From: Corallococcus macrosporus DSM 14697 | Lineage (GTDB): Bacteria > Myxococcota > Myxococcia > Myxococcales > Myxococcaceae | Length of the DNA: 64,000 nucleotides | Reading direction: 5' to 3' | Assembly: GCF_002305895.1 (NCBI RefSeq) | Contig: NZ_CP022203.1 | Location: 2,334,501-2,398,500 of the forward strand | Shown here: piece by piece, positions 11,379 through 52,564 of the stretch | Layout: each line of letters begins with the position of its first letter | Numbering within the stretch: the stretch's first letter is position 1 | The notes under the pieces: model-generated | The model's database searches: none | Seen by the model: only the letters and a program-made list of their open reading frames with translations | Told to the model about the DNA's origin: nothing | Position numbers and translations under genes: made by a program

Positions 11379-11385
11379 CAAAAGG

Positions 11386-11468
11386 ACGGCCGGGACACAC
11401 GCGGAAGTACGCTACCGTTGCTTCCTTCCGGACCTGGCGGGGTTCACGCCCCCACGTTGTCCCGACCA
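11386..11468 (-). ncRNA. ffs: Signal recognition particle RNA (4.5S type)
   Basis: On the minus strand the diagnostic SRP Alu-less hairpin core is present (CCAGGTCCGGAAGGAAGCA, about 11416-11434), flanked by pairing arms; the outer ends GGTCGGGACA and TGTCCCGGCC can close the helix with one G-U pair. The roughly 80-nt size fits a small bacterial 4.5S RNA that binds Ffh. It is the last RNA of the serS-tRNA-tadA series and is followed by a terminator. Confidence 0.93.
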
Positions 11469-11502
11469 TAAAAAATGTAACCACGCCCTGCAGAAACAAC
11501 AA

Positions 11503-11589
11503 CGGAGAGGGTGGGATTCGAACCCACGATACCCTTTCAGATATACACGCGTTCCAGGCGTGCGCCTTCAACCGCTCGGCCACCTCTCC
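11503..11589 (-). tRNA. tRNA-Ser(GGA)
   Basis: An 87-nt class II tRNA with acceptor GGAGAGG/CCTCTCC, anticodon loop CTGGAAC (anticodon GGA), a long variable arm and T-loop TTCGAAT. The discriminator is G and CCA is not encoded. It reads UCC/UCU. Confidence 0.95.
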
Positions 11590-11601
11590 ATAAATCTGGA
11601 G

Positions 11602-11688
11602 CGGAGAGCGTAGGATTCGAACCTACGATACCGTTGCCGGTATGCCTGATTTCGAGTCAGGTGCCTTCGACCACTCGGCCAGCTCTCC
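11602..11688 (-). tRNA. tRNA-Ser(CGA)
   Basis: An 87-nt class II tRNA with acceptor GGAGAGC/GCTCTCC, anticodon stem CCTGA/TCAGG, loop CTCGAAA (anticodon CGA) and a long variable arm. CCA is not encoded. Its 5' end is only 5 bases beyond the tadA stop codon, so RNase P cleavage would trim the tadA mRNA right after its stop. Confidence 0.95.
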
Positions 11689-11693
11689 AGTAT

Positions 11694-12158
11694 TCAATTG
11701 TCACGTTTCTTCGCGCGCAGGCGCCCGAAGAACGTCTTCAAAAGCAGGCGGCTCTCGTCCGCCAGGATACCACTCGTGACTTGGAGCCGGTGATTGTGTC
11801 GAGGCTCTTCGACCAGGTTGTACAGCGAACCCACCGCACCGGCTTTCGGATCAAAGGCACCGAAAACGAGTCGCGTCACACGGGACTGCACCAGGCCTCC
11901 GGCGCACATGGCGCACGGCTCAAGCGTCACGTACAGGGTGACACCCGAGAGACGCCAGGCACCGAGCTTCCGGGCCGCGGCATCCATGGCCAACATCTCT
12001 GCGTGAGCGAGCGGGTTGCGGTCCACTTCGCGGCGGTTGAAACCCGTGCCGACGACTTCACCGTCCAGCACCGCCACAGCACCTACGGGGACCTCTCCGA
12101 GTTCCGCTGCTTCCCGCGCGAGCGATAGCGCCTGCTGCATGAAAGCTTCGTCACTCAT
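11694..12158 (-). CDS. tadA: tRNA-specific adenosine deaminase TadA
   Basis: 154 residues, standard length. The cytidine/deoxycytidylate deaminase-fold motifs are present: HAE (52-54, zinc ligand and catalytic Glu) and PCAMC (81-85, two zinc cysteines). TadA converts A34 to inosine in tRNA-Arg(ACG). The tRNA-Arg(ACG) gene lies 20 bases upstream on the same strand, so enzyme and substrate are neighbours, probably in one transcript. No strong Shine-Dalgarno sequence is seen before the ATG. Confidence 0.97.
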   Translation of the reverse strand: MSDEAFMQQALSLAREAAELGEVPVGAVAVLDGEVVGTGFNRREVDRNPLAHAEMLAMDAAARKLGAWRLSGVTLYVTLEPCAMCAGGLVQSRVTRLVFGAFDPKAGAVGSLYNLVEEPRHNHRLQVTSGILADESRLLLKTFFGRLRAKKRDN

Positions 12159-12178
12159 GGAGAACTGCTCGAAAGAAG

Positions 12179-12255
12179 TGGCGCTCCCTGGAGGATTCGA
12201 ACCTCCGGCCTTCGGATTCGTAGTCCGACGCTCTATCCAGCTGAGCTAAGGGAGC
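12179..12255 (-). tRNA. tRNA-Arg(ACG)
   Basis: A 77-nt tRNA including an encoded CCA. Acceptor GCTCCCT/AGGGAGC, anticodon stem TCGGA/TCCGA, loop CTACGAA gives anticodon ACG. A34 is the substrate of TadA, which is encoded directly downstream. Confidence 0.96.
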
Positions 12256-12284
12256 ATTTCTTCCGGCGCTGCTACAACTACAAG

Positions 12285-12374
12285 TGGCGGAGAGAGAGGG
12301 ATTCGAACCCTCGATACCCTTTCGAGTATGCAGGTTTAGCAAACCTGTGCCTTCAGCCTCTCGGCCATCTCTCC
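12285..12374 (-). tRNA. tRNA-Ser(GCT)
   Basis: A 90-nt class II tRNA including encoded CCA. Anticodon stem CAGGT/ACCTG, loop TTGCTAA (anticodon GCT) for AGC/AGU codons, long variable arm. Confidence 0.95.
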
Positions 12375-12418
12375 AACTCTTCTCTGTCAAAGAGCCAACA
12401 AATTCAAGAACAAAAACT

Positions 12419-12505
12419 CGGAGGCGGTAGGATTCGAACCTACGGAGAGCTTTCACCCTCTGCGGTTTTCAAGACCGCTGCCTTCAACCGCTCGGCCACG
12501 CCTCC
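12419..12505 (-). tRNA. tRNA-Ser(TGA)
   Basis: An 87-nt class II tRNA. Acceptor GGAGGCG/CGCCTCC, anticodon stem GCGGT/ACCGC, loop CTTGAAA (anticodon TGA) for UCA. No encoded CCA. It is the first tRNA after serS (93 bases past its stop). Confidence 0.95.
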
Positions 12506-24278: not shown

Positions 24279-24376
24279 CCTGACGCGGCTGTCAGGCCGC
24301 GCATGGCGACTGGCCCCGGGGGCCCTGACAGCGATGTCAGAGGCCCGACCGCGGGGCAGGGGGCTGTCAGGCCCCC
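24279..24376. promoter_or_regulatory. Cluster of TGTCAG inverted repeats upstream of the sigma-54 promoter
   Basis: Three dyads lie 87-184 bases before the predicted start of transcription: CCTGAC-6-GTCAGG (24279-24296), CTGACA-4-TGTCAG (24325-24340) and GGGGGC-TGTCAG-GCCCCC (24359-24376). Repeated CTGTCAG/CTGACAG half-sites at this distance fit upstream activator sites for a sigma-54 enhancer-binding protein. The activator is unknown, and these could instead be RNA hairpins downstream of the epimerase gene. Confidence 0.5.
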
Positions 24377-24435
24377 GGAAGCCGCAACCCCTTGAATCTC
24401 AAGCCCTCCGCCAGCGCCCGCTCCCCGCGAGGTGC

Positions 24436-24452
24436 TTGGCACCGCCATTGCT
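24436..24452 (+). promoter_or_regulatory. Sigma-54 (RpoN) -24/-12 promoter
   Basis: The sequence TTGGCACCGCCATTGCT matches the RpoN consensus YTGGCAC-N5-TTGCW at every defined position, with GG at -25/-24 and GC at -13/-12. The predicted start of transcription is near 24463. It points rightward into the tandem hairpin/terminator units and not toward any protein gene on the plus strand. Confidence 0.82.
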
Positions 24453-24462
24453 CTAGGAGTGG

Positions 24463-24584
24463 TCCGTCACGGCGCGGCGGCAAGGGCCCGGAAACGGTGC
24501 CGCCCCGTCAAACTGTAGGGCACTCCATGGGGGAGTTCCCGACGCCTTCCGTCTCGGCCGGCCCCGAGACGGCGGGCGGTTTCT
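24463..24584 (+). ncRNA. Candidate sigma-54-dependent small RNA, unit 1 with leader hairpin
   Basis: Predicted transcript from the RpoN promoter. A leader hairpin pairs GGCGGCA (24476-24482) with TGCCGCC (24498-24504). Unit 1 (24514-24584) then forms hairpin 1 (GGGcACTCC / GGAGTtCCC around loop ATGGG) and hairpin 2 (24543-24578, 15-position stem with loop CCGGCC) followed by GTTTCTT, an intrinsic terminator. Size would be about 122 nt. No credible short open frame is seen in it. Sigma-54-driven intergenic RNAs are known in Myxococcus (Pxr), but I cannot show that this is related. Confidence 0.7.
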
Positions 24585-24655
24585 TGTAGGGCGCTCCATG
24601 GGGGAGCTCCCGACGCCCACCGCCTCGGCCGGCCCCGAGACGGTGGGCGGTTTCT
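24514..24655 (+). repeat. Tandem duplication, 71 bases x 2, with compensatory changes
   Basis: Copy 1 24514-24584 and copy 2 24585-24655 differ at six positions. A24522/T24536 in copy 1 become G24593/C24607, preserving a base pair in hairpin 1. T24548/C24573 (mismatch) become A24619/T24644 (pair), and T24547-G becomes C24618-G in hairpin 2. One change (T24552 to C24623) loses a pair. The pattern supports selection on RNA structure. Confidence 0.9.
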
Positions 24656-24657
24656 TT
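24585..24657 (+). ncRNA. Candidate small RNA, unit 2 (read-through or paralogous copy)
   Basis: Second 71-base unit with the same two hairpins. Hairpin 1 has GCTCC/GGAGC, and hairpin 2 has a 15-position stem ending in GTTTCTTTT, a stronger U-tract than unit 1. Without its own promoter it would be made by read-through of the unit 1 terminator (RNA of about 195 nt) or by processing. The terminator directly abuts the stop codon of the convergent lipoprotein gene. Confidence 0.6.
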
Positions 24658-50578: not shown

Positions 50579-51106
50579 GTGCGTCCTGAAGGACGAGCAA
50601 GAGGAGCACGTCCATGCTCCACCAGACCGGCGGGTGAAAGTCCCGTCCGGGTAGACACCGGAGTGCCCGGTAGCAGGCCCCAGCCGACCGCCGAGAGGCG
50701 GCAGGCCACAGCGGGGCGTCAAAAGCCTCCATTCGGGAGGGAGCAAGAGCGCGGGCCGCAACATCAAGTGAAGCCTGCCGCCTCGACAGATACACAATGG
50801 GAGCGCCGAGCCGAGCATGTCGCGGCGAAGGCCAGGTCCGCTGCGGACGAGTCCGGATGGGAAGCAGCGGGGCTCCCCGGGGTATGGGGCGTGGCACGTG
50901 CTCAAGGTCTGGTGGGGAACAGGAGAGACCCGTCTGCGCGGCCGTCGTCGCGGCAGGGCCCCGCGTATAAGCCGAAGGTGAAAGCGTGGGGAGCGCAGCG
51001 GGAGTCCGAGGGGGCCGTAGTACCGGCGAGGGGCGTGCAAGACAACGCGCCCGGAGGGAAGGGCCCCTGCTTGGGTGGTGCTTGGGCGGGAGGTAAGAGC
51101 GAGGGC

Positions 51107-52540
51107 ATGAGCCGCCAAGAAGGCTCCAATCCCCCCGGTGGGCCAGAGTCCACCGACAAAGTTCGACAACTCCAGCGCAAGCTCTTCGTGGCAGCCAAGC
51201 GGTGCCGGGAGCGCCGTTTCCATGCGCTGTATGACCGAGTCCACCGGAGTGACGTCCTGTGGGAAGCATGGCAGCGGGTCCGACGCAACAAGGGCGCTGC
51301 CGGCGTGGATTCAGTCACGCTGGCGGCGGTGGAGCAGTACGGCGCACAGCGGCTGGTGCAGGAGCTGGGCGAGGTACTGCGAGCAGGAACCTACAAACCG
51401 CCCGCGGTGCTCAGGCGGTTCATTCCCAAGGCGGACGGGAAACTCAGGCCGCTGGGCATTCCGACGGTGCAGGACCGTATCGTGCAGATGGCGGTGAAGC
51501 TGGTGCTGGAGCCTGTCTTCGAGGCGGATTTTCTTCCGTCGTCGTATGGCTTCCGGCCACGTCGAAGCGCGGTGCAGGCCCTGGAGCGCATCCGGGAGGC
51601 AGTCAATGCCGGGTGTCACCACGTGCTCGACGCGGACATCCGCGACTACTTCGGCAGCATCGACCATGAGCTGCTGATGGAGCGGGTGGAGCGGCGGGTG
51701 TCGGACCGGAGGGTGCTCAAGCTGCTGAGGCAGTGGCTGAGTGCGGGAGTGGTGGAGGAGGGCCGGTACTCCGAGACGGTCTCGGGGACACCGCAGGGGG
51801 GAGTGATTTCCCCGCTGCTCTCCAACATCTACCTGCACTTCTTCGACAGCGTGTGGCAGCGGCAGTGCGCGCAGGTGGGCGAGCTGGTGCGCTACGCGGA
51901 TGACTTCGTGGTGCTGTGCAAAGGCCGCGAAGCTGCCGAGGAGGCCGAACGAAGGGTGCGCATCATCTTCGGGAGGCTGAAGCTGCAACTGCACCCGGAG
52001 AAGACGCGGCGAGTGGAACTCACCGAGGGCAAGGAAGGCTTCGACTTTCTGGGCTGTCACCTGCACAAGCGCATGTCGGGCAAGCTGTGGCAGCAGCGGG
52101 GAGTGCGCCGCTACTACCTCCAGCGGTGGCCGTCAGCGCGGAGCATGAAGCGGGTGAGGGCTCGGGTGAAGGAGCTGACGAGCCGACAGCGGCACGGGGT
52201 GAAGGATGTCCGAGAAATCATCGGCGGCCTGAACCCGGTGTTGCGAGGATGGGGCAACTACTTCCGCACCGGGAACGCGGCCCGAAAGTTCAATCAACTC
52301 GACTCCTACGTCTTCCGGCGGCTGCACCAGTTCATGGTGAAACGCAGAGGCAGGAAGCTGCGGGCCGGCCAGGCGGACGCATGGAATCGAGCGTGGTTCT
52401 GGGAAAGAGGCCTGCACCGGTTGCATGGGACGATTCGCTACCCGAAACCGTGCATGCTGCACGACAACACTCTCGTTAAGCCGTATGCGGGAAAACCGCA
52501 CGTACGGTTTGAAAGGAGGAGGGTGGAAACGGGCCGCTGA
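51107..52540 (+). CDS. ltrA: Group II intron-encoded reverse transcriptase/maturase
   Basis: 477 residues from ATG 51107. The RT domain has FIPKADGKLRPLGIPTVQDR, YGFRPRRSAVQAL, SGTPQGGVISPLLSNIYL and the catalytic YADD (263-266). A maturase X domain follows (VKDVREIIGGLNPVLRGWGN, YFRTGNAARKFN). No HNH endonuclease domain is visible. The frame continues through domain V and into domain VI before stopping at 52538, which is unusual. The frame is open far upstream (to 50222) but that part is intron RNA structure. Confidence 0.93.
   Translation: MSRQEGSNPPGGPESTDKVRQLQRKLFVAAKRCRERRFHALYDRVHRSDVLWEAWQRVRRNKGAAGVDSVTLAAVEQYGAQRLVQELGEVLRAGTYKPPAVLRRFIPKADGKLRPLGIPTVQDRIVQMAVKLVLEPVFEADFLPSSYGFRPRRSAVQALERIREAVNAGCHHVLDADIRDYFGSIDHELLMERVERRVSDRRVLKLLRQWLSAGVVEEGRYSETVSGTPQGGVISPLLSNIYLHFFDSVWQRQCAQVGELVRYADDFVVLCKGREAAEEAERRVRIIFGRLKLQLHPEKTRRVELTEGKEGFDFLGCHLHKRMSGKLWQQRGVRRYYLQRWPSARSMKRVRARVKELTSRQRHGVKDVREIIGGLNPVLRGWGNYFRTGNAARKFNQLDSYVFRRLHQFMVKRRGRKLRAGQADAWNRAWFWERGLHRLHGTIRYPKPCMLHDNTLVKPYAGKPHVRFERRRVETGR
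52478..52510 (+). other. Group II intron domain V (ribozyme core hairpin)
   Basis: AAGCCGTATGCGG-GAAA-ACCGCACGTACGGTTT forms the expected hairpin with GAAA tetraloop, a two-base bulge and the AGC catalytic triad at 52479-52481. It lies 56 bases before the 3' end, normal for these introns. Confidence 0.9.
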
Positions 52541-52564
52541 CGGTACCGCGCCACCCCTCTACCA

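Follow-up and report, generated by a model that had tools for sequence, protein, structure and literature searches.

The window analyzed here, i.e., the whole stretch of 64,000 nucleotides, contains a sigma-54 promoter box followed by a leader hairpin and two tandem hairpin-rich units. In most genomes of the family the gene order around this module is acyltransferase, epimerase, RNA, convergent lipoprotein gene and TPR protein gene. The parts of the locus are the following:

24280..24295, + strand: distal activator-site-like inverted repeat CTGACGCGGCTGTCAG, one mismatch relative to TGACAN4TGTC, recognized from sequence
24325..24340, + strand: proximal activator site CTGACAGCGATGTCAG, putative upstream activating sequence of an enhancer-binding protein
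24385..24399, + strand: IHF-like element CAACCCCTTGAATCT in the interval from activator site to promoter, resembling the IHF core CARNNNNTTR (no binding data)
24436..24452, + strand: sigma-54 -24/-12 promoter TTGGCACCGCCATTGCT, conserved upstream of the RNA
24463, + strand: predicted transcription start, inferred from sigma-54 spacing
~24471..24509, + strand: leader hairpin, from folding and covariation; only some genera have one
~24515..24585, + strand: RNA unit 1, a hairpin with AUGGG loop followed by a terminator hairpin with invariant CCGGCC loop and a weak T tract
24586..24657, + strand: RNA unit 2, same structure as unit 1, with a stronger T tract (TTTCTTTT)

The first-pass annotation of this DNA had reported a perfect RpoN (sigma-54) box at 24436-24452, and TTGGCACCGCCATTGCT is indeed the window's sole match; 100 shuffles produced none. 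It had also described two tandem units of ~71 nt, each consisting of a hairpin and a terminator hairpin; these fold with z-scores of -2.8 and -3.4 and, as it stated, differ at exactly six positions (24522/24593, 24536/24607, 24547/24618, 24548/24619, 24552/24623 and 24573/24644), with the two paired changes as it described them. The leader hairpin that it placed at 24476-24504 is present but folds slightly larger, at about 24471-24509.

Elsewhere in the window, Rfam matches to group II intron domains (RF02003 and RF00029, at 50628-50766 and 52476-52562) point to a group II intron or retroelement, and a bacterial small SRP RNA, also found with Rfam, adjoins a five-tRNA gene cluster at 11380-12505 on the minus strand.

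Distribution and conserved structure of the RNA

In a BLAST search with the locus, every one of the genus's 27 genomes gave a match, as did 95 of the 96 family genomes, which cover 26 of 26 genera; the sole family genome without a match is 79% complete. The covariance-model search that the first-pass annotation had proposed recovers members through the whole family and in two more families of the order. The carriers number 101 of the order's 145 genomes (95 in the window's family, one in family f7 and five in family f8), and a phylum-wide sample of 195 genomes yielded no carriers beyond those 101. True members score 49-99 bits, with unit 2 of the window at 98.4 bits (E = 8.4e-22), although the E-values are rough owing to a short calibration. 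Because the compared genomes are related, conservation counts given here and below do not represent independent events. Absence of the structure and the RpoN box from related genomes would have counted against an RNA gene; both are present.

Tandem units (2-4 copies) are confined to the window's genus and other genera have one, so the twin arrangement described earlier holds for this locus but not for the RNA in general. The carriers include Myxococcus xanthus (two units), Pyxidicoccus fallax (four), Corallococcus, Archangium, Hyalangium and Citreicoccus (one each), and Cystobacterineae MAGs that are apparently termite-gut derived, judging by their isolate names. The RNA persists in strongly reduced genomes of 2-3 Mb. 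A three-unit locus (L129) was found in a record labelled Comamonas sp. KCTC 72670 (BNCN01000011.1); it groups with the window's genus (G013) and the record is probably a mislabelled Myxococcus genome. In one genome (G027:C6) a diverged additional copy of the RNA lies elsewhere (L225) and has an activator site and a sigma-54 box of its own.

The earlier proposal that the hairpins represent conserved RNA structure, not incidental terminators, had relied on paired changes between two units. Two such changes alone would be weak evidence; the case rests on 60 units from 26 genera. In the alignment of these units 99.0% of cells are paired and changes on both sides occur in 12 of the 22 base pairs. 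The covariation score is 0.323 versus 0.183 in shuffles (0/500), and is at most 0.112 when the pairing partners are slid. The loop of the terminator hairpin is CCGGCC in all 60 units and that of the first hairpin is AUNGG in 59 of them. The leader hairpin alone has a weak single-sequence z-score (-0.75); among 26 leaders, pairing is 94% and six of seven pairs show compensatory change, such that covariation in other genera supports the hairpin. A pairing between the leader loop and the terminator loop (GGGCC/GGCCC) was also considered and was discarded, since in three genomes (L060-L062) it is disrupted with no compensating change.

The locus could instead be read as the mRNA of a short peptide, given that unit 1 of the window contains an ATG at 24528 with a 20-codon frame. 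This ATG is found in only 20 of the 60 units, the third base being T, A or C in the others, and the changes follow the base pairing; the frame was rejected and we give a coding function practically no credence. Judged by the covariation and by the lack of a conserved ATG, the locus would qualify as a non-coding structured transcript.

The RNA had been called undescribed on the basis of the window alone, and the searches agree with this. No Rfam 15 family matches at gathering or permissive thresholds (the best sub-threshold match has 19.5 bits against a threshold of 70), and no M. xanthus RNA at this locus was found in the literature searched.

Promoter, activator site and candidate activators

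A TGGCAY-N5-TTGCW box precedes the RNA in nearly every locus of the family, and a sigma-54 box is present in most loci of the distant family f8. The distance from the transcription start implied by the box to the unit that follows is 3-5 nt in about 15 genera, 13-14 nt in a few, and 44-58 nt in loci with a leader, i.e., a -24/-12 box is found at the right distance from the RNA. The idea that the RNA is driven by sigma-54 is thereby supported beyond the single locus where it was first put forward: the box, the structure and their association are kept in 26 genera and two further families.

The promoters also share a conserved upstream activator site. This TGACA-N4-TGTC inverted repeat lies ~100 nt upstream of the box (about 112 nt in the window's genus) and is exact in 62 of 84 orthologous upstream regions, while 80 of the 84 have it with at most one mismatch. 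The controls gave no exact match in reversed sequence and 0.5% in shuffles with one mismatch allowed. The pattern was derived from these same promoters; the reversed pattern and loci from other genera and families serve as controls. Several genera repeat the site ~45 nt further upstream, and in the window CTGACGCGGCTGTCAG represents this second copy. Between activator site and sigma-54 box there is an IHF-like element, and elements similar to CAACCCCTTGAATCT occur at a near-constant place in many genera. At loci L071 and L072, from relatives whose genomes are 2-3 Mb, the RNA and the sigma-54 box are kept and TTGCATTTTGCA/TTGCATTTAGCA repeats stand in place of the activator site, which, on sequence evidence, suggests a switch of activator.

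These features bear on whether the hairpins merely terminate transcription of the upstream epimerase gene or the convergent lipoprotein gene and were duplicated by chance. Every unit does end as an intrinsic terminator, and in most of the family the locus is situated between those two genes. Nearly everywhere, however, the sigma-54 box and the activator site separate the epimerase gene from the RNA, invariant loops are not normal for terminators, and the module occurs without the epimerase both in f8 and in the G027 paralog. In f8 the flanking genes are unrelated to those of the window, yet the RNA and the activator site are kept, with the sigma-54 box in most cases; because the module sits there between unrelated genes, we regard the RNA as its own transcription unit and not as an epimerase terminator. 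The terminator explanation is nearly refuted. Within the window's genus the T tracts of the internal units are interrupted (mostly GATTCTTG or GTTTCTTG), whereas the final tract is GTTTCTTTT in 27 of 27 loci, from which we infer partial read-through of the internal terminators.

The combination of activator site and sigma-54 box is found at the RNA locus in 27 of 27 genomes of the genus and in none with the reversed control pattern. The longer pattern CTGACAN4TGTCAG has only three exact copies in the 9-Mb genome, of which one, at 4516818, is inside a coding frame. The window's genome has site and box at two further places, namely before a lipoprotein gene, where a shorter-spacing pattern is shared by 12 genomes of the genus, and before a gspC gene, where they occur in two genomes. 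The former is an unnamed gene (L151, 1501-3015; G000:C1:2568265) without a Pfam or NCBIfam match; the latter (L203, G000:C1:2711837) is a gspC paralog that does not belong to the main gsp operon, with several TGACA/TGTCA sites and a sigma-54 box upstream.

The window's genome encodes 53 enhancer-binding proteins, and some relatives only 5-7. Full frames were recovered for 48 of them, and of these L251 (response-regulator type) and L258 (FHA type) alone have reciprocal best hits in five of five test genomes. Their genes open and close one gspC-to-gspN type II secretion operon. We infer that the likeliest activator is one of these two, because they are kept in all five test genomes and bracket gspC-N, and because the same site and box independently precede a gspC paralog. 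This evidence is indirect, and the assignment is only suggestive since 1) in the small f8 genomes the L251 ortholog is present but has no gsp operon beside it, 2) a termite-gut relative has both L251 and L258, has lost the activator site and carries a different upstream repeat, and 3) a search of the neighbourhoods of L251 and L258 themselves found no activator site beside either gene. Another enhancer-binding protein, L248, was favored at first on account of its absence from termite-gut relatives that have lost the activator site; it was set aside because genome G072 retains the site without L248.

Proposed function and comparison with known systems

The explanation that we prefer as a whole, with a probability of roughly 0.7, is that the locus is a stand-alone small RNA gene, driven by sigma-54 and an enhancer-binding protein, whose product is an Hfq-independent trans-acting regulator. 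The gene, its structure, the promoter box, the activator site and the conservation of all these are computational observations, while the steps that connect them, and every statement on function, are inferred. Sigma-54 RNA polymerase at 24436-24452 would be activated by an enhancer-binding protein bound ~100 nt upstream to the TGACAN4TGTC repeats, with probable IHF-type bending of the intervening DNA, and the transcript would begin near 24463; both the bending and transcription itself are inferred, there being no transcript data. The predicted product in most genera is one ~75-nt unit with two hairpins and its own terminator at the end. In the window's genus a leader hairpin would be added and the unit would occur 2-4 times, with the final terminator stronger than the weak internal ones, and one start could thus yield RNAs of one or several units and a higher dose.

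The invariant AUNGG and CCGGCC loops, presented on freely covarying stems, are likely contact sites, and we propose that they pair in trans with mRNAs without the help of Hfq. M. xanthus has no hfq (PMC5684412), and therefore any RNA pairing would be Hfq-independent. A trans-acting regulatory RNA is the most likely function, but it is inferred, no target has been identified, and the conserved loops could equally bind protein. The main rival is an RNA whose units titrate or scaffold a regulatory protein in the manner of CsrB/RsmZ or 6S RNA, without mRNA pairing. Two short invariant loops on covarying stems, and copy number growing from one to four in one genus, would fit a dose-dependent sponge, and CsrB/RsmZ-type sponges share with our RNA the repeated small hairpins. 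The CsrA-binding GGA loop motif is not conserved, however, and a CsrA sponge in particular was rejected (AUNGG loop in 59/60 units, no ANGGA loop). Neither the CsrB/RsmZ nor the 6S families give an above-threshold match, and the single unit of most genera is small for a typical sponge; we consider a protein-binding role unlikely, though it deserves to be kept in mind.

A trans-acting RNA might tune envelope or secretion genes, a physiological link that we infer only because the candidate activators are the ends of the gsp operon. A further-reaching possibility, which we regard as doubtful, is a family-wide RNA arm of type II secretion control that combines a secretion-linked activator, independence of Hfq, two invariant loops, of which CCGGCC is self-complementary and could give loop-loop dimers, and dose tuning by tandem units behind one promoter. 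Should the link to secretion be borne out, exoprotein secretion would be connected to RNA control. An RNA conserved through the family, with a defined promoter, a defined activator site and few candidate activators, makes the use of small RNAs in Hfq-less myxobacteria directly testable.

Sigma-54-dependent small RNAs are a known class; the family described here is absent from Rfam and from the literature searched, in which we found no well-studied regulatory sRNAs of myxobacteria besides Pxr. GlmY of enterobacteria (sigma-54/GlrR) and the Qrr sRNAs of Vibrio (sigma-54/LuxO) are controlled by enhancer-binding proteins of the response-regulator type. They resemble our RNA in being small RNA genes under sigma-54 and an enhancer-binding protein, and differ in that there is no Rfam relationship and that M. 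xanthus has no Hfq.

The nearest precedent is the developmental sRNA Pxr of M. xanthus. Like our RNA, it has a sigma-54 promoter, is intergenic and hairpin-rich, ends in a terminator hairpin, has no Hfq to rely on, and occurs as tandem paralogs in some genera (PMC5568312). One could hence suppose that the locus is a divergent copy of pxr, and the best score of our RNA model within the pxr locus does land on pxr. That score of 14.9 bits falls well short of the 49-99 bits that true members reach, and is expected for a generic hairpin plus terminator. The window's genome has a single pxr (G000:C1:1329727), separate from our locus, with its own promoter and beside an NtrC-type regulator; there is no sequence similarity between the two, and our RNA is flanked by the epimerase and lipoprotein genes and not by pxrR/nla19, in agreement with the original statement that the locus and its flanking genes differ from those of pxr. 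Descent from pxr is thus very improbable. Pxr further differs in its three stem-loops, and the TGACAN4TGTC site of our locus was not seen at pxr. The pxr paralogs of Cystobacter are arranged in tandem, each with its own promoter (PMC5568312), whereas all units of the RNA described here share a single promoter.
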